Origin: Rufibacter hautae
GTDB taxonomy: Bacteria; Bacteroidota; Bacteroidia; Cytophagales; Hymenobacteraceae
DNA: 64,000 nt
Direction: 5' to 3'
Assembly (NCBI RefSeq): GCF_008271695.1
Contig: NZ_VKKY01000002.1
Location: 1 to 64,000, forward strand
In this document: piece after piece, positions 37,954-46,343 of the stretch
How positions within the stretch are numbered: the first letter of the stretch is position 1
How the letters are laid out: every line of letters starts with the position of its first letter
Position numbers and translations under genes: made by a program
The notes under the pieces: model-generated
Database searches by the model: none
Told to the model about the DNA's origin: nothing
The model's input: only the letters and a program-made list of their open reading frames with translations

Positions 37954-40269
37954 TTAGTCAGCTACCGGCAGGTACACCCTGAACTCGGTGCCTTGGCCTT
38001 CTTTGCTATCAACCTCAATCCTGCCCTTATTGTTTTCCACTATGCGCTTCACCATGAACAGCCCTACGCCGGTGCCCTCCACGTGGTCATGGAAACGCCG
38101 GAACATGGTGAACAGCTGTTCCTGCTGGTGCGCGGGCAAGCCTAACCCGTTGTCTTTCATCTCTAAGACAACATGCTGCTCTTCTAACCGCGTCTGAATC
38201 TGGATGCTGCATTCCCGGTCTGGGGATTGGTATTTGAGGGCATTGCTGAGCAGGTTGTACAAGATGCTTCTGAAGTTCTTCTTAGAAAACCGGAGCTGCG
38301 GCACCTGGAAATTAGTGTGGATGTGGCAGGGTTGGGTGCTGTTGGAGGCCACCAGGTCTGCCTTGATGTCTTCGTACACCTCCTGCACGTTTATGGATTC
38401 TTCCAGCAGGTTCTCAGGGTTCGTGTTCTGCAGTCTGCTGATGTTAGTGAGGTCCTGGATGGTGCGTTGCAGGCGGCTCATGGAGGTGATGACCCGGTTC
38501 AAAATGCTTTCTGTCTCAGAATTCAAGCAATCTGTGTCGGTTAGTTCGTCTTTCAGGAAGCCTATCAGGGCTTCAATGGTGGTGATGGGGGAGCGCAGGT
38601 CATGCGAGGCGGTATAGACAAAGTTATCCAGGTCGGTGTTGGTCCTGACCAGCTGGGTGTTCTTCTGGGCCAGGGCTTCTTCGGCCTGTTTCAGGTCAGT
38701 GATGTCAATGGAAGAACCGATGTAGCTGTAAATGTCACCATTAGGCAGATAGCTGGGCGCACCCTGTGAAAGCAGCCACCGGTACACGCCGTCTTGCCGG
38801 CGCATGCGGTGTTCAATGGTGAAAATGCCTTGGTTCTGGATAGCCCCACCCAGGGTTTTTATGGCTATGTTTACGTCATCTGGGTGCACATACGGTATCC
38901 AGTTGTCCCGGAGTGCGGTCTCATACCCAATGCCTAAGAAAGATAAAAAGGAGGTATTGACATACGTGAGTTCAGCCTCTGGGCTAATGGCCCACACCAT
39001 GTTAGGGGCGGCGTCTGCCATAATCCTGAACCGTTCTTCGCTCTCTTTTAAGGCCGCTTCCATTTCTTTGCGGACCGTAATGTCTCTGGTGATGGCCAAC
39101 AGATGGGGTTCCCCATCCAGCAGTAGCCCCACTACCCTGGCTTCTACCGGAAAAATGTGCCCATCTTTTCTTCTGTGCAGAGTTTCAAACTGCGGAATGG
39201 TTTCTTTCTGCGCTTTGGCGAAAAGCTGCTTGAACATGTCCTCCTGGTACACCGGGTCTACCGCAGGCACCCGCAAACCTGGGGCTTCTTTTTCTGAGTA
39301 ACCCCAGATTTCCAGGGCATTTTTATTCAAGTAGGCAAATGAACCGTCTTCCCGCATCAACACAAAGGAATCCTGGGCCTGGTCTGCCATGAACTTGAAC
39401 CGCCTTAATTCTTCCTGGCTGGCTTCTACCTTTTGGCGGGCCAGTACCTGCTCGGTTACGTCCTGGGCTACATGAATTACCCCGGTTATTTTCCCGGCTT
39501 CAATTAGCGGGGTATAGGATACATTTACGTAATGCTTTTTCAGGATATCGCCCTCCTGTAAGTCTACCGGCACTTCATTGCCTCTGAAAGCGTCACCAGT
39601 TTGTACCACGTTTTTGGCAATGGCCAGAATGGGTTGGTTTTCTACCTCGGGCAAAACGTCTATCATCTTCTTGCCAAGCACCTCCTCTGTTTTCTCTTTG
39701 CCCATGAGGCGCACCATGGGGGCATTGACACTTTCAATCACCACATCGGCGCCCCGGGTTAACGCAAAGGCCACCGGCGCCTGTTCTACCATGTGCCGGA
39801 AACGTGATTCTGTTTCTTCTATTTTATGGCTGGTAAGTACCTGATCGGTGATGTCTGAGGTGGAGTGAATCAGGTAGCGTACTTCTCCTTCTTCATTTAG
39901 AACCGGCTTGTTGCAGGCAGCCCAGTACCGCTCCTCAAATTGGCCGTCTATGTTGGGTACGTCATAGCGCACAATGGGCATATGGTCTGGCTTCTTTGAA
40001 GCCAAGGCTTTATGGAAAGACTCTTTTAACGTAGAAGGTCCTGTGGCCGCATTTTCCTGGGGGTTTTCAGGAAATACCTCAAAAACACTTCTGCCTATTA
40101 CGTGATGCCTTTCTTTGCCCGCGGTGTGGAGAAAATCATCACTTACTTCCAGAATGGTGAAATGCGGAGGATTGGGCTGTGCTACCAGAAAACTGCCCGG
40201 CATGGCTTTAAATATCGTTTTATAGTCTAATGCATTTTCTGGCCGGGCACTTGAATCTTCTAAGGACAT
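37954..40269 (-). CDS. Multi-PAS sensor histidine kinase
   Basis: This 771-residue kinase has no membrane segment, so it probably senses a cytoplasmic signal. It carries about four PAS domains: residues of about 12-140 (starting YKTIFKAMPGSFLVAQPNPP), 155-280 (FRHMVEQAPVAFALTRGADV), 285-400 (ELRRFKFMADQAQDSFVLMREDG) and 405-530 (ERFRIMADAAPNMVWAISPE). The histidine box is YTASHDLRSPITTIEA, with phosphoaccepting His556; the N box is LYNLLSNALKYQSPDRE, the G1 box MKDNGLGLP and the G2 box GTGVGLFMVKRI. The receiver gene follows after 50 bp. The kinase core is closely similar to that at 40915-42051. Confidence 0.9.
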   Translation of the reverse strand: MSLEDSSARPENALDYKTIFKAMPGSFLVAQPNPPHFTILEVSDDFLHTAGKERHHVIGRSVFEVFPENPQENAATGPSTLKESFHKALASKKPDHMPIVRYDVPNIDGQFEERYWAACNKPVLNEEGEVRYLIHSTSDITDQVLTSHKIEETESRFRHMVEQAPVAFALTRGADVVIESVNAPMVRLMGKEKTEEVLGKKMIDVLPEVENQPILAIAKNVVQTGDAFRGNEVPVDLQEGDILKKHYVNVSYTPLIEAGKITGVIHVAQDVTEQVLARQKVEASQEELRRFKFMADQAQDSFVLMREDGSFAYLNKNALEIWGYSEKEAPGLRVPAVDPVYQEDMFKQLFAKAQKETIPQFETLHRRKDGHIFPVEARVVGLLLDGEPHLLAITRDITVRKEMEAALKESEERFRIMADAAPNMVWAISPEAELTYVNTSFLSFLGIGYETALRDNWIPYVHPDDVNIAIKTLGGAIQNQGIFTIEHRMRRQDGVYRWLLSQGAPSYLPNGDIYSYIGSSIDITDLKQAEEALAQKNTQLVRTNTDLDNFVYTASHDLRSPITTIEALIGFLKDELTDTDCLNSETESILNRVITSMSRLQRTIQDLTNISRLQNTNPENLLEESINVQEVYEDIKADLVASNSTQPCHIHTNFQVPQLRFSKKNFRSILYNLLSNALKYQSPDRECSIQIQTRLEEQHVVLEMKDNGLGLPAHQQEQLFTMFRRFHDHVEGTGVGLFMVKRIVENNKGRIEVDSKEGQGTEFRVYLPVAD

Positions 40270-40438
40270 ATATTTCCGTAAGCTGCAGTAAAAGACGGGG
40301 TATTTAGGTTTCCTTCCTATTCTATGGGGAAGATAGCGACAAGGAAGAACCTACTCTCTACAGAAGAGCCCGCTTATGAACCGTACGGGCAATTAGAAAG
40401 CAACGATGCAGCGCCGGGCAGGTAGCTCGTTTCTGGGC

Positions 40439-40870
40439 TTATCCTATTATTCCTTGTAAGATCTCTTTGGAAAGGGGTTTTGTAAGAAAACCGGCCACAG
40501 GGTAGAGGGCGGCTTTCTCTTTGTCTCCGGGGTTAAGGGAACTGCTGCAGATATACACCTTGGTTTGGCTCAGGTCTATAGGATCTGTTTTAGTGGTCCT
40601 TTCCAGAAACTCAAAGCCATCCATCACGGGCATACGGATGTCCAGGAAGATAAGGTCAGGTAGCTTTTTATCTTCGGCAGAAACCAACTCCTGTAATTTG
40701 GTGAAGGCCTCCAGGCCATTTTTGGCGGTAATGATTCCGTTTTGAATACCGGCCTTTTTCAAGAGAAGCTTAGACACGAAAATCCAGCTTTCGTCATCGT
40801 CTACTATCATCACAGATAGCATCTTTTGTGCGTTATCTGCCTGTGCGTCTGCTGCGTGCTGCTCCTGCAT
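40439..40870 (-). CDS. Stand-alone response regulator receiver 2
   Basis: This 143-residue receiver-only protein is a paralog of the receiver at 37472-37903, with the same length and the same key positions: acidic pocket IVDDDESW, phosphoacceptor Asp77 in LIFLDIRMPVMDG, Lys131 in FLTKPL, and CSSSLNPGDKEK. It follows the smaller PAS kinase by 44 bp on the same strand and is probably its phosphate acceptor. Its stop is followed by a 169-bp gap before the next kinase gene. No P element lies here. Confidence 0.88.
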   Translation of the reverse strand: MQEQHAADAQADNAQKMLSVMIVDDDESWIFVSKLLLKKAGIQNGIITAKNGLEAFTKLQELVSAEDKKLPDLIFLDIRMPVMDGFEFLERTTKTDPIDLSQTKVYICSSSLNPGDKEKAALYPVAGFLTKPLSKEILQGIIG

Positions 40871-40914
40871 TTCTGTTGGGTACTAATTTACGTAAGTCTG
40901 TTAGGTAGGAGGGG

Positions 40915-42051
40915 TTACATCGCCTCTTGAAAGTACACCCTGAATTCAGTACCTTCTCCTTCTTTGCTTTCCACCTCAATCTTGCCGTCTGCGTTGTCTA
41001 CTATTCTCTTCACCATGTAAAGGCCAACGCCGGTGCCTTCTACGTGGTCATGGAAGCGCCGGAACATGCCGTATAACTGCTCTTGCTGTTTAGGGTTCAT
41101 GCCTAGGCCATTGTCTTTTGCCCGTAAAACCACATAAGGTTCTTCTAAACGGGTGGTTACCCGGATAATGCAATCGCGGTCTGGCGCCTGGTATTTGATG
41201 GCGTTGCTTAGGAGGTTGTACAAGATGCTCCGGAAGTTCTTCTTGGAGAAGTTGAGCTGTGACACTTGAAAATCAGTTTGGATGAAGCAGGCTTTTTGTT
41301 TGGAGGGATAGTTCAGGTCGGCCATGATGTCTTCGTACACGTCTTTGATATTGGTGACGATGTCTGTGGCGTCTTGGGTGCTGTCTTTTTGCACCCTGCT
41401 TATTTCGGCTAGATCTTCAATAGTGCGCTTAAAACGGTCTACCGAGTCCAGTACCCGCTGCAAAACCTCCTGCGTCTCTGGCGTAAGGGCATTTTCTTCC
41501 TTGAGCTTTTCTTCCAGGTACAGCATCAACGCCTCTATGTTGGTGATAGGCGAGCGCAGGTCATGCGAGGCCGTGTAAATGAAATTGTCCAGGTCATTGT
41601 TCGTGCGCTGGAGCTCAGAGTTTTTGCGCTCCAGGGCATTTTGCTGCCGTTCGGCTAGTTTGTCCTGCAGTTCTTTCTGTTTGGTAAGGTCTCCCGTGAT
41701 TTTGGTAAAGCCAATGTGCTGGCCGCTCTCATCATAGATAGGAGTGAGGGTAACGGTGGCCCAGAACAGAGAACCGTCTTTCTTTTTGCGCCAGTCTTCG
41801 TTTTCAAAAGAGCCGTTATCCAGGGCTTTCTGTAATTCTTTTTCGGGGTAACCGACCTGCTGGTATTCGTCTGGGTGCAGGATGCCGTAAAATTGGCCCA
41901 CAATTTCTTCTTCGGTGTAGCCTTTCAGCCGTTCCGCTCCCTTGTTCCAAGCCGTGATAATGCCGTTGGTATCAGTGGCGAAGATCGCATAGTCCTTTAC
42001 CTGGTTTACAAAAAAGGAGTTGATGCTTTCTGCAGAATAGATAGGGGCCAT
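40915..42051 (-). CDS. PAS sensor histidine kinase
   Basis: This 378-residue soluble kinase has a single PAS domain (residues of about 10-130, with FVNQVKDYAIFATDTNGIITAWNKGAE, a form common in energy- or light-sensing PAS domains). A coiled-coil helix leads into the HisKA domain, with His163 in YTASHDLRSPITNIEA. The ATPase domain has the N box LYNLLSNAIKYQAPDRD, G1 AKDNGLGMN and G2 GTGVGLYMVKRIVDN. It is followed by a receiver gene with a 44-bp gap. Kinase core and receiver both resemble the next pair downstream, indicating tandem duplication with loss or gain of PAS domains. Confidence 0.9.
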   Translation of the reverse strand: MAPIYSAESINSFFVNQVKDYAIFATDTNGIITAWNKGAERLKGYTEEEIVGQFYGILHPDEYQQVGYPEKELQKALDNGSFENEDWRKKKDGSLFWATVTLTPIYDESGQHIGFTKITGDLTKQKELQDKLAERQQNALERKNSELQRTNNDLDNFIYTASHDLRSPITNIEALMLYLEEKLKEENALTPETQEVLQRVLDSVDRFKRTIEDLAEISRVQKDSTQDATDIVTNIKDVYEDIMADLNYPSKQKACFIQTDFQVSQLNFSKKNFRSILYNLLSNAIKYQAPDRDCIIRVTTRLEEPYVVLRAKDNGLGMNPKQQEQLYGMFRRFHDHVEGTGVGLYMVKRIVDNADGKIEVESKEGEGTEFRVYFQEAM

Positions 42052-42251
42052 AGGTTGTCTATACAGGTATGAACACAGGAATAATTCTTTTACTAAAAGA
42101 AGAATTAAAGGTTAGCCTGCCTTTATGGGCTGGTATAAACACTAGTCTTTTGAGAAGTAATACAAGTTTTCAAACTCTGGCAGTCCTTTTCTTGTATATT
42201 TAGGTAATTGAAACGGCCTTTCAGGATAACAGCGTTTCAGAAGACGTTGTT

Positions 42252-43331
42252 ATGATTAACTCCCACGAGTTTTGCAAAGCCTTACTAGAACAAACCGGTT
42301 TGAGTTTGTTCGGCTACGACACAGGCTCACATAAATTCGTGTACCTGAGCCCTGCTTTCAAAGAGATTTTCAAGTTTCAAGAGGATCAGTCAGACATTGC
42401 TGCCCTGCTGAGCAAGGTTCACCCAGATGACCAGGAGCACGTCATTAAAAACCTGACCGAAGCCCAGGAACCAGGCATTTGTCCGGAAATTGAGTTCCGG
42501 ATCAGGTTCACCGGTCAGTCAGAGCAGTGGGTGTGCCTTCGGCCTACTTTGCTGGAGCAAAGCACCGGTGAGCGCTTGATCATTGGGCACGCAGAAGACA
42601 TCTCTATCCGACGCCAATACAACGACAACCTCAAGAAGTACTCCAACAAGAAAAACTCCGTCCTGAACATCCTTTCCCATGACCTGGCCGGGCCAATGGG
42701 CATGATCCATAACCTGGCAGAAATCCTGGTAGAGCAATTAGGCGATAGAGCCGATGAAGATGCCTTGGAAATCATTCAGCTGATTGACAAAAGCAGCCAG
42801 AACGGTACCCGCCTCATCCAGGAGTTTATGAAAAAAGAATTTCTGGAGTCTGCCCAAACAGAGGTCATTACCCGGCGGGTGAATCTGGTGGAGAAGTTCA
42901 GGGAGGCCATTGTGGAGTACCAGAGAGCCGAGGGAAAGGTGCTGCACGTGCAGGTTGATTTCACACCGGCCCAGGAGGAAGTCTACGCCCAAATAGATGA
43001 CATCAAATTTCTGCAAGCCATCAGCAACCTGATCTCTAATGCCCTGAAGTTTACGCCAGACGGGGGAAGCATCACTGTTGGCTTGGAGGAGAAAAACGAC
43101 CAGATTCTGATCACCGTCTCTGATACCGGGGTAGGTATTCCTAAAAAGTACCATGCCACGCTGTTTGATGAGTTCACCAAGGCCCGCCGCCCCGGTCTCA
43201 AAGGAGAGCCATCGGTGGGGTTGGGCATGTCCATTATCAAGACCATTGTAGAATGGCACCACGGACAAATCTCGTTTGAGAGCGCAGAAGGCAAGGGCAC
43301 CACCTTCTACATCACCCTTCCCAAAGCTTGA
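42252..43331 (+). CDS. PAS sensor histidine kinase, divergent member of the cluster
   Basis: This 359-residue soluble kinase is transcribed away from the two kinase/receiver pairs. The N-terminal PAS domain (residues of about 10-125) begins LLEQTGLSLFGYDTGSHKFVYLSPAFK and includes KVHPDDQEHV. The histidine box is VLNILSHDLAGPMGMI with His143, and the catalytic domain includes ISNLISNALKFTPDGG, DTGVGIP and GLGMSIIKTIVEWHHG. It is only distantly related to the other two kinases (different His box). No receiver gene follows it, so it may use one of the neighbouring receivers. A P element begins 6 bp after its stop. Confidence 0.88.
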   Translation: MINSHEFCKALLEQTGLSLFGYDTGSHKFVYLSPAFKEIFKFQEDQSDIAALLSKVHPDDQEHVIKNLTEAQEPGICPEIEFRIRFTGQSEQWVCLRPTLLEQSTGERLIIGHAEDISIRRQYNDNLKKYSNKKNSVLNILSHDLAGPMGMIHNLAEILVEQLGDRADEDALEIIQLIDKSSQNGTRLIQEFMKKEFLESAQTEVITRRVNLVEKFREAIVEYQRAEGKVLHVQVDFTPAQEEVYAQIDDIKFLQAISNLISNALKFTPDGGSITVGLEEKNDQILITVSDTGVGIPKKYHATLFDEFTKARRPGLKGEPSVGLGMSIIKTIVEWHHGQISFESAEGKGTTFYITLPKA

Positions 43332-43336
43332 TTCCT

Positions 43337-43372
43337 GTTTTTAAAGCATTTTCTGAAAACTAGCCTCAAAGC
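43337..43372. repeat. P element copy 16
   Basis: GTTTTTAAAGCATTTTC to AACTAGCCTCAAAGC, 6 bp after the kinase stop. Confidence 0.55.
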
Positions 43373-43994
43373 TTAGTTTGCCTTGGTATGGCCTATGTTT
43401 TTTTGATTCCTTCCCTCTGTTTGTATTCACACGCCACTTTCTTAAAAGCATACGAAGCGTTAGGTTTGTATTCAAGCCTATTTCGGGGCTTAATTGGTTT
43501 AATTGCTTCAAATGTATACAGCAGAGTGGCCGTATAAGATTTTGTTATTCTCGTCTCATCTCAGGTAAATACTTGTAATAAAAGGTTCTATAAGCCTAAA
43601 GTTAGCCTTCTTTCTTTTTAACTATTTAAATAGGTTGATTCTGTCATTAAGTCACTTGATTTTAAGCTATTTATCTAAAACAAGGCGAAAAACACCATGC
43701 GTATAGCGTAATTACGAAGCTAATTTGCAGTAAATACGGTTTTTTAAGTGCATACCCTTAAATTTCACCTGTTCTTCAACTCTCTTTTTTAGGCTCGCGT
43801 ATTTCTCCAAAACTGGTAAATTATTTAGAACAATTACCAGAACAGTTTTCTTAAACATCACGGAGCCTTTTGAGCATTGCCCCCTAATCTTTAGTGCTCT
43901 ACTAAGGAATAAAGTACCTGTTTTACTGTCATGAATATGCCTAAATCCATGATAGATAAAGCATTGCTTTGCTCTGGTTCAAACGTTTATACGA
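43373..43994. other. Long gap upstream of the GH1/RmlD fusion gene
   Basis: This 622-bp AT-rich stretch has no supported gene; an open frame at 43378-43578 has no motif and no start context. No perfect TANNTTTG box with a -33 partner was found. The length suggests a long leader or complex control of the downstream gene, but nothing specific can be read. Confidence 0.5.
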
Positions 43995-46343
43995 ATGGAG
44001 AAAAGCGAAAATCTGAACCCTTGTTTCCCAGAAGTTTGGGCAGGTTTAGAGTGTACCGTAAACCGGGTAGGAGATGAATACCTGGACCAGATGCAATTGA
44101 ACGGCCATGCCCTGCGCGAAGAAGACATTGCCTTGTTTGGCTCCATCGGGGTGAAGAAGATGCGCTATCCGCTGCTGTGGGAATTAACCGCCCCCAACGG
44201 ACCCGCTACCGCTGACTGGACTTGGGGCGACCGCCGCATGCAGTTGCTGCAGGAACATAACATCACGCCCATTCTTGGACTCGTGCACCACGGCAGCGGC
44301 CCCATGCACACTAACCTGGCAGACCCGTCCTTCCCCGAGGGAGTAGCCGAATACGCCCGTGCGGTGGCAGAACGCTATCCCTGGGTGGAGTACTTTACCC
44401 CGGTTAATGAACCACTTACCACCGCCCGCTTCAGCGGACTGTACGGGCACTGGTACCCGCACGGCAGAGACGGCAAGACCTTCGGGTTAACCTTGCTGCA
44501 CCAATGCAAAGCCACGGTGTTGGCCATGCGCGCCATCCGGGAAGTCATTCCGCATGCCAAACTGGTGCAAACCGAGGATTTAGGCAAAACCTACAGCACC
44601 CCGCTGCTGGCCTACCAGGCCAAACTGGACAATGACCGCCGTTGGACCAGCCTGGACCTGCTCACCGGCACCCTTACCCCAGAGCATTCCATGTGGCAGT
44701 ACTTCGTGAACAACGGCATCCCGGAAGAAGACCTGCAATGGTTCAGAGACAATCCGTGCCCGCCAGACATCATCGGGATCAACCATTATCCCACCAGTGA
44801 GCGCTACCTGGATGAAAACTTGGCTGGTTTCCCTGAGTGGACGCACGGCGGGAACGGTATCCATGAGTACGCCGATGTGGAGGCCCTGCGCGTGAAAACC
44901 GAAGATCCGGCCGGCTTTTACTCAGGCCACAAGGTCTTGCTGCGCGAAGCCTGGGAACGCTACGGTTTGCCTATCTCGGTGACCGAGGTGCACATCTGCG
45001 GCGCCCGCGAAGAGCAGGTGCAATGGTTCAAGCACGTCTGGGATTCCTGCACCAATTTGAAAAAAGAAGGTGTAAACGTGGTAGGCGTAGCTGCTTGGTC
45101 CTTACTGGGCACCTTTGACTGGGTGAACCTGGTGACCCGCGCCGACGGCTACTATGAACCCGGCGTGTTTGACGTACGCGGACCGGTGCCAAGACCAACC
45201 GCCCTGGCCAAAATGCTGACCAAACTGGCTAAAGGAGAGGAGTACAACCATCCCTTGTTCCATCTGCCCGGCTGGTGGCAACGCCCAGACCGCTATTTCT
45301 ACCCGTTCACGGACGAAGCCAAACACGCCGAGTTGTTCCTGAACCGCGAAGAAAACCGGTTTGGCCGGGGCACCAAGTCGGTGTGGCGCCTGAACTGGAA
45401 CCCCATCTATGAAACCGAGACCATCCCAGACGGCGACGGCTTGACGGAGAAAGAGGTACTCCATCTGGAAGACACCACGCGACCTATCCTCATCACAGGT
45501 GCCACCGGTACGCTGGGGAGTGCGTTTGCCCGGCTCTGCGGAGACCGCCACATTCCGTACCGGTTGGTGGGTCGCAAGCAGCTGAACATCGCTGATCCGT
45601 TCTCCATCGAGCGGGCCATGAACTACTACAACCCCTGGGCGGTAATCAACGCGGCCGGGTACGTGAAAATTGACGAAGCCGAAGAAGACTGCGAAGCCTG
45701 CCATCTGGTGAACGCGCACGGCGCCATGCTGCTGGCCGCTACCTGCCAGAAAAGAGGCGTCCAGTACCTAACCTTCTCGTCTGACCTGGTGTTTGACGGC
45801 TTGAAACAGGAGCCTTACCTGGAAAGCGATGCCGTGAACCCCCTGAACGTGTATGGCAAAAGCAAAGCGCAGGCCGAGAAATACGTGCAGGACATGAACC
45901 CCGAGGCGTTGATCGTGCGCACCAGTTCGTTTTTCGGGCCTTGGGACGAGTTCAATTTCCTGACCCTCATGATCAACCAACTGGCCAAAGGAAATACCTT
46001 CCTGGCCCCCGAGGACATCATTATCTCGCCCACCTACGTGCCCGATCTGGTAAATGCCTGCCTTGACCTGTTGGTAGACGAAGAATCAGGAATCTGGCAC
46101 TTGACCAATGAAGGTGAGTTGTCCTGGGCAGACCTGGCCCGGAAAGCCGCCGAGATCACCGGCCTGGACCCTAACCTGGTGCAAGGGTTCTCCGCGAATG
46201 AGTGGCAAGGGCACCAAGCCCCTCGGCCAAGGTACAGTGCCTTGAGCAGTGAGCGCGGCCAGATCCTGCCTCAGTTAGAAGATGCTTTGATGCGCTACGC
46301 CAACCGCATGAAGTGGGCCAACCGAATTACCGTTTCCGCCTGA
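43995..46343 (+). CDS. Fusion of a GH1 glycosidase-like domain and an RmlD-like sugar-nucleotide reductase
   Basis: This 782-residue cytoplasmic protein (no signal peptide) joins two enzyme domains. Residues of about 12-430 form a family 1 glycosidase-like barrel: the acid/base Glu139 is in FTPVNEPLTT and the nucleophile Glu331 in ISVTEVHICG, so both catalytic glutamates appear intact, although overall similarity to beta-glucosidases seems low. Residues of about 496-775 resemble dTDP-4-dehydrorhamnose reductase (RmlD): the NAD(P) motif TGATGTLGSAF (501-511), FSSDLVFDG and the YxxxK pair Tyr620/Lys624. RmlD makes dTDP-rhamnose; whether this domain does so is unknown. There is no rml cluster around it. 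The last four codons and the TGA stop lie in a P element. Confidence 0.85.
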   Translation: MEKSENLNPCFPEVWAGLECTVNRVGDEYLDQMQLNGHALREEDIALFGSIGVKKMRYPLLWELTAPNGPATADWTWGDRRMQLLQEHNITPILGLVHHGSGPMHTNLADPSFPEGVAEYARAVAERYPWVEYFTPVNEPLTTARFSGLYGHWYPHGRDGKTFGLTLLHQCKATVLAMRAIREVIPHAKLVQTEDLGKTYSTPLLAYQAKLDNDRRWTSLDLLTGTLTPEHSMWQYFVNNGIPEEDLQWFRDNPCPPDIIGINHYPTSERYLDENLAGFPEWTHGGNGIHEYADVEALRVKTEDPAGFYSGHKVLLREAWERYGLPISVTEVHICGAREEQVQWFKHVWDSCTNLKKEGVNVVGVAAWSLLGTFDWVNLVTRADGYYEPGVFDVRGPVPRPTALAKMLTKLAKGEEYNHPLFHLPGWWQRPDRYFYPFTDEAKHAELFLNREENRFGRGTKSVWRLNWNPIYETETIPDGDGLTEKEVLHLEDTTRPILITGATGTLGSAFARLCGDRHIPYRLVGRKQLNIADPFSIERAMNYYNPWAVINAAGYVKIDEAEEDCEACHLVNAHGAMLLAATCQKRGVQYLTFSSDLVFDGLKQEPYLESDAVNPLNVYGKSKAQAEKYVQDMNPEALIVRTSSFFGPWDEFNFLTLMINQLAKGNTFLAPEDIIISPTYVPDLVNACLDLLVDEESGIWHLTNEGELSWADLARKAAEITGLDPNLVQGFSANEWQGHQAPRPRYSALSSERGQILPQLEDALMRYANRMKWANRITVSA

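Follow-up and report, generated by a model that had tools for sequence, protein, structure and literature searches.

A GH1-RmlD fusion protein of Rufibacter hautae from a family linked to glycosyltransferase and UGM genes

The GH1 family is known to contain beta-glucosidases and 6-phospho-beta-glycosidases, and the RmlD family contains the dTDP-4-dehydrorhamnose reductases. Loci of bacterial UDP-galactopyranose mutase (UGM), such as that of Deinococcus radiodurans and the pam galactan locus of Kingella kingae (PMC12269835), were found to contain UGM next to a glycosyltransferase, and the galactofuranose (Galf) transferases reported there are GT2 or GT111. The linked glycosyltransferase (GT) of the family described here is instead of the group-1/GT-B kind, and the module has a third partner, a cytosolic protein of GH1 type. 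A fusion of RmlD with a different enzyme of sugar metabolism is reported from Prymnesium parvum (PMC6556577), where the partner is RmlC of the rhamnose pathway, whereas the partner here is a glycosidase. No description of the GH1-RmlD fusion or of the three-gene module was found in the literature searched, most subscription papers lying outside the search. No characterised homologue with an already known simple function, which an earlier note on this DNA had named as grounds for abandoning its proposal, turned up in the searches made.

The window is the whole stretch of 64,000 nucleotides that was analysed. The fusion gene (43995-46343, + strand) was found to contain an ATG-initiated open reading frame of 782 codons encoding 782 amino acids, with a GH1-fold (beta/alpha)8 domain (residues 13-430, 44031..45284, +) followed by a linker (residues 431-494, 45285..45476, +) and an RmlD-fold short-chain reductase domain (residues 495-774, 45477..46316, +). 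The GH1 domain was delimited by Pfam, a structure match and a conserved block, the linker by the model, which is of low confidence (disordered) at residues 442-475, and the reductase domain by Pfam (498-755) and the match to structure 1vl0. Glyco_hydro_1 (PF00232) was found over residues 41-378 with 48.7 bits, above the Pfam gathering cut-off of 22.6, followed by RmlD_sub_bind (PF04321) over residues 498-755 with 207.1 bits, above the cut-off of 27. The AlphaFold model of the protein, made with 43 sequences, had a pLDDT of 87.3 and a pTM of 0.89. In VIA-align, residues 7-417 were superposed on 2cet, a beta-glucosidase of T. maritima (Z 36.0, rmsd 3.2, 379 aligned), GH1 being the predominant family among the matches listed, and residues 495-774 were superposed on the RmlD orthologue 1vl0 (Z 36.4, rmsd 1.7, 276 aligned); Foldseek likewise placed the halves on GH1 beta-glucosidases and on 1vl0. 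No hydrophobic N-terminal stretch was seen in the translation when read by eye, and the protein appears to be a cytosolic two-domain enzyme. The earlier note had described GH1-like and RmlD-like domains in one cytoplasmic protein, which the single frame, the Pfam matches and the model bear out, and its statement that an export signal is absent agrees with the reading by eye. A chance or artefactual fusion was rejected because the frame is intact and the same domain order, sought in other genomes as the earlier note had proposed, recurs in 79 loci. These loci were taken from the best 80 by similarity of at least 578 confirmed stretches, are not a random sample and include several truncated contigs.

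The catalytic residues were compared in an alignment of 43 fusions, comprising the window protein and 42 of the 79 loci (best 80 of at least 578) picked for spread; one locus (L054) was left out, the coordinates given for it having overrun its stop. The GH1 half was found to contain Glu139 (44409..44411, +), aligned with the acid/base Glu (NEP) of GH1 structures, in 42 of the 43 fusions, and Glu331 (44985..44987, +), aligned with the nucleophile Glu (ITE), in all 43. The reductase half contained the dinucleotide-binding loop GATGTLG (residues 502-508, 45498..45518, +), with Gly502 and Gly505 conserved in 43/43 and Gly508 in 42/43 fusions, followed by the presence of the YxxxK pair Tyr620/Lys624 (45852..45866, +) in 43/43. 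The two glutamates, the NAD(P) loop and the YxxxK pair had all been read as kept in the earlier note, which would have given way to their loss in most homologues; they were found to be retained in nearly all of the aligned fusions. Two fusions (L034:7983-10184 and L125:7539-9833) have a fast-evolving RmlD half. In the Caballeronia p4 fusion the Tyr and Lys of the YxxxK pair are replaced by Phe and Met, so that this copy may have lost its reductase.

The fusion shares with GH1 enzymes the fold (Z about 36), the acid/base and nucleophile Glu, the NxY motif and the last Trp positions, but differs from them in the glycone-binding part of the pocket. His-His-Gly was found in 43/43 fusions where the four aligned GH1 structures contain His-Trp-Asp, and position 375, occupied in those structures by the glycone-recognising Glu before the last catalytic-pocket Trp, contained Asp in 39, Gly in 3 and Glu in 1 of the 43. 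As judged from these replacements in the sequence, the glycone of the GH1 half is probably not glucose. The score of the window protein against the beta-glucosidase equivalog TIGR03356 was 53.4, far under the cut-off of 478.5, and, unlike GH1 enzymes, proteins of this family carry a fused reductase and are encoded in linkage with GT and UGM. The other half shares with RmlD the 1vl0 fold, the GxxGxxG loop, the YxxxK pair and the RmlD_sub_bind match (207 bits), whereas its score against the rmlD equivalog TIGR01214 was 214.4 (217.7 in the whole-genome search), narrowly below the cut-off of 224.05. The pocket Tyr of STDYVF, present in 4/4 aligned RmlD structures, was replaced by Leu in 42/43 fusions, and the Trp of RTxW, also present in 4/4, was replaced by Ala (35/43) or Ser (8/43); no rml genes were found alongside.

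The fusion gene is preceded by a gap of 663 bp (43332..43994), close to the 650 bp of the earlier note. Neither a sigma-70-like sequence nor an Rfam family was matched in this gap. Scans of the region for promoters, terminators and Rfam families did not exceed chance, 4 terminator-like sites being found where 5.1 were expected, and the upstream region was conserved only in patches in an alignment of 7 Rufibacter orthologues. Further upstream (window 37954-43331) lie genes for three histidine kinases with PAS domains and for one response regulator. Regulation by these kinases was not supported, similar kinase genes being present beside the loci L037 and L055 but absent from L038 and L039. No GT, Glf or gal gene was found near the window copy, and the window contained no rml operon, GT or Glf. 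The absence of an rml operon nearby had been recorded in the earlier note, and a profile search of the own genome placed rmlB (476.7 bits, cut-off 365.1) and rmlC (220 bits, cut-off 155.75) on contig C1. GT and Glf had one match each in the genome, both on contig C3, where GT (337580), Glf (339489) and a second fusion (340255-342504) lie in a row with the fusion last. The window copy is thus not adjacent to GT and UGM, in contrast to the C3 paralogue, and both partners are present in the same genome.

The GH1-RmlD fusion was found in at least 8 phyla. GT and Glf (UGM) were counted by tblastn because simple longest-frame/GC3 gene calling missed genes in GC-rich loci. Among the 79 loci (best 80 of at least 578), GT and/or Glf was found within 8 kb of the fusion in 53; GT and Glf were each present in 47 (for Glf, 45 of them with at least 55% identity), and both occurred in 41. 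The partner was upstream on the same strand in 46 of these 53 loci, no more than 600 bases away in 41 of the 46, and among the 41 loci having both, 25 contained GT and Glf as a single frame. Neither was found within the stretch searched in the other 26 of these best-matching 79, which include L040, the window type and the majority of the Massilia loci. The annotated plasmid loci examined, with the fusion or a GH1-only relative, contained GT and/or glf in 8/8 cases. Neighbours over 88 loci, grouped into single-linkage clusters with family names taken from representatives, included GH2 (21), GalE-like (16), PhyH-like (15), GalT (13), GH43 (11), GalK (10) and M24-like (10) proteins. No constant transporter or polymerase was found in the module, and no dehydratase cluster was recognised when the representatives of the 40 largest clusters listed were read. 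The M24-peptidase-like protein (L066:14972-16066, cluster c9, 10 loci) recurs close to GalT and GH2 genes belonging to the module; in L149, judged by its sequence, one also precedes the GH2 gene and the GT-FAD gene.

The two Rufibacter copies were found to be distinct. A fusion 52-54% identical to the window protein was present in 16/16 Rufibacter genomes searched, and glf adjoined this operon paralogue in 10/10 Rufibacter loci examined (L009, L020-L028). The window-type copy (87-100% identity) was present in 7/16 genomes, and its Rufibacter orthologues (87-93% identity) were syntenic (neighbour clusters c24-c29); the window copy is a separate paralogue of the operon fusion, lying apart from that operon. 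The median dN/dS of the window type was 0.036 in the GH1 half and 0.055 in the RmlD half (15 pairs, 6 genomes), and that of the operon type was 0.096 and 0.110, respectively (21 pairs, seven copies), at dS values of 0.6 to 2.9, where synonymous sites are partly saturated. Because dN/dS is low, both halves are read as under strong purifying selection in most lineages keeping the window copy, with two exceptions, an R. immobilis orthologue with E139K (L038) and an orthologue with an in-frame TGA (genome G004), which is the seventh window-type orthologue (L019) and is omitted from the dN/dS set. In trees made by a quick method, the operon copy clustered with Adhaeribacter (SH-aLRT 96 in the GH1 tree and 95 in the RmlD tree) and apart from the window copy. 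In the GH1 tree the window clade grouped with L040 (100) and weakly with cyanobacteria (83); in the RmlD tree its position was not resolved and L040 was not kept with it. A recent duplication of the operon copy into the window copy is not favoured, because the trees part the two. The window copy was possibly acquired by transfer from another phylum.

The partners were also found to co-occur with the fusion across genomes. A sample of 148 genomes of the phylum contained the fusion in 3 (the own genome included), GT in 8 and Glf in 30, and all 3 fusion genomes contained both GT and Glf. Among 30 fusion genomes taken from the fusion loci, mostly from those without an adjacent Glf, GT was present in 29 and a PF03275 Glf in 24; a Nostoc draft (L061) contained neither. 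Two Massilia without a PF03275 Glf contained GT fused to an FAD domain (L148:6934-9717 and L149:6574-9339), and the FAD domain of L148 resembles eukaryotic-type UGM structures (1e-42), among them 3ukl, the UGM of A. fumigatus (PMC3624792). Since the Massilia GT carries this domain, the mutase appears to be joined to GT in two unrelated ways. The other Glf-less fusion genomes contained GT in frames of 883-925 aa (two genomes) or 931 aa (one). The Glf of the own genome is closely related to UGM structure 3hdq (630.6 bits), that of D. radiodurans solved with UDP-Galp (PMC3624792). No PDB relative of GT was found at E<=0.001, one match being at 0.37. The UGM gene dr_A0367 of D. radiodurans is listed among the genes lowered in a dsr11 mutant in another report (PMC7022480), which is taken only as a lead.

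GT-UGM pairs were also found beside GH1-like proteins lacking the reductase. In the 148-genome sample, 4 of the 5 GT-positive, fusion-negative genomes contained a different GH1-like protein beside GT-Glf, of 378-399 aa, with a 'GGFEC' start and 34-40% identity to a D. actinosclerus protein. The latter likewise adjoins GT and glf. The proteins with the GGFEC start are also relatives of a GH1 protein encoded on contig C2 of Rufibacter, and the same arrangement of GT-Glf with a GH1-like protein was found in A. brasilense and M. ciceri. Proteins of this type (about 380 aa) lie beside GT-UGM at L145:8569-9717, L147:8421-9587 and L130:5902-7101, and further ones at L131:5353-6549, L132:5545-6696 and L133:9035-10171. 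No Pfam match at 0.001 was found in four scanned of these six, and the Rufibacter relative matched GH1 in Pfam at 33.3 bits. This relative, itself of the GGFEC type (L122:6200-7444, G000:C2:650199-651440), was found in 6/16 Rufibacter genomes, away from GT and glf. Ensifer and Mesorhizobium contained a fusion-type GH1 in the GT-Glf row, in which no RmlD domain was found. GT-UGM pairs with no GH1-like gene in the stretch shown were those of D. radiodurans, D. deserti, S. meliloti and L129, and no D. radiodurans record was present among the matches listed, which was counted against a Galf module as the setting of the fusion. Because some GT-UGM pairs adjoin the shorter, reductase-less protein, the GH1-type protein looks to be a frequent, though not constant, partner of GT-UGM, with the reductase apparently added in a single branch.

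The recurrent partners of the family are GT, UGM and GalE/GalT/GalK, which point to galactofuranose and not to a deoxysugar. The window protein is a probable uncharacterised enzyme of a Galf-glycosylation module. The fuller proposal, that the family is a tailoring partner of a UDP-galactofuranose glycosylation module in which the window copy works in trans or on a variant product, is held at slightly better than even confidence. Under this proposal, GalK/GalT/GalE would supply UDP-galactose, from which UGM would form UDP-Galf, and the linked GT would transfer Galf onto an acceptor. The GH1 half may act as a retaining beta-glycosidase or transglycosidase using Glu139 and Glu331, by which a sugar of the Galf product would be trimmed, transferred or recycled, and the RmlD-like half may act as an NAD(P)H-dependent reductase, using the GxxGxxG loop and Tyr620/Lys624, on a keto-sugar arising in that route. 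As the second, unlinked copy, the window gene would cooperate with the one GT-UGM pair that the genome has, or act on a variant product. The annotation 'family 1 glycosylhydrolase' suggests a scavenging beta-glucosidase; the genomic company suggests the biosynthesis of Galf conjugates.

The earlier note had suggested an unusual deoxysugar glycoside or a novel sugar-modification step. Some modification step is plausible; a deoxysugar substrate is not supported, given the partners of the family and a reductase half that falls below the rmlD cut-off and lacks the pocket Tyr and Trp. The nearest alternative to that note, in which the host uses the RmlD half as its true dTDP-4-dehydrorhamnose reductase and the GH1 half acts on a glycoside of rhamnose or another deoxysugar, was kept because the genome contains rmlB and rmlC, no rmlD candidate in it reaches 224.05, and its two fusions score highest against TIGR01214 (223.2 and 217.7, against 210.9 for the stand-alone RmlD-like gene). 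It is nevertheless improbable, given the Leu (42/43) and Ala/Ser (43/43) at positions that are Tyr and Trp in 4/4 RmlD structures, the UGM and Leloir genes as neighbours, and the Ensifer and Mesorhizobium rows with the GH1 part and no RmlD domain found. The Fcf1/Fcf2 route of E. coli O52 provides the model for a module making a 6-deoxy-furanose such as fucofuranose, with a dehydratase, the RmlD-like protein as 4-ketoreductase and Glf as a 6-deoxyhexose mutase. Such a route would account for an RmlD-like reductase paired with a Glf-like mutase and for pocket residues differing from those of the rhamnose reductase, and a dTDP-glucose dehydratase is present in the genome. The Glf is closest, however, to the UGM reported as solved with UDP-Galp (PMC3624792), GalE, GalT and GalK recur near the module, and the 40 largest neighbour clusters listed contained no dehydratase; a 6-deoxy-furanose product is accordingly given a similarly low probability.

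One half of the window protein might instead serve only as a scaffold, with a non-catalytic GH1 or reductase domain binding a sugar or NAD(P). E139K and the TGA in the two Rufibacter orthologues, the loss of the YxxxK pair in the Caballeronia p4 fusion, the His replacing the HWD Trp and the Asp (39/43) replacing the Glu that precedes the last Trp are consistent with this. The window copy, however, retains all catalytic residues, and its dN/dS values (0.036 and 0.055) lie below those of the operon copies (0.096 and 0.110), so that a scaffold is unlikely.

If the preferred reading of a Galf tailoring partner is true, a widespread Galf product awaits discovery in cyanobacteria, Deinococcus, Acidobacteria, Bacteroidota and Proteobacteria, and GH1 gains an unusual biosynthetic role, coupled to a reductase in one chain. 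The gene set of GT, UGM and GH1-RmlD makes this testable in laboratory strains. Many fusion-bearing bacteria come from dry or irradiated habitats. A wider proposal, in which at least 8 phyla share an undescribed intracellular Galf pathway of GT and UGM (often fused, with two unrelated UGM versions), a cytosolic GH1-type transglycosidase and an NAD(P)H reductase confined to one branch, leading to a Galf glycoside or glycolipid that protects against stress and contains a reduced sugar or a polyol, is speculative and rather doubtful.

Two minor arrangements were found in related loci. An FRG-domain protein gene follows GT-glf, in the place of GH1, in D. radiodurans (L143:7151-8862) and D. deserti (L146:7148-9168). 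A third GH1 branch, 30-33% identical to the fusion GH1, was found beside an SDR in Hymenobacter and beside a Gfo/Idh/MocA oxidoreductase in Deinococcus (L127:7142-9122 and L126:6758-9197), so that GH1 next to an oxidoreductase recurs.
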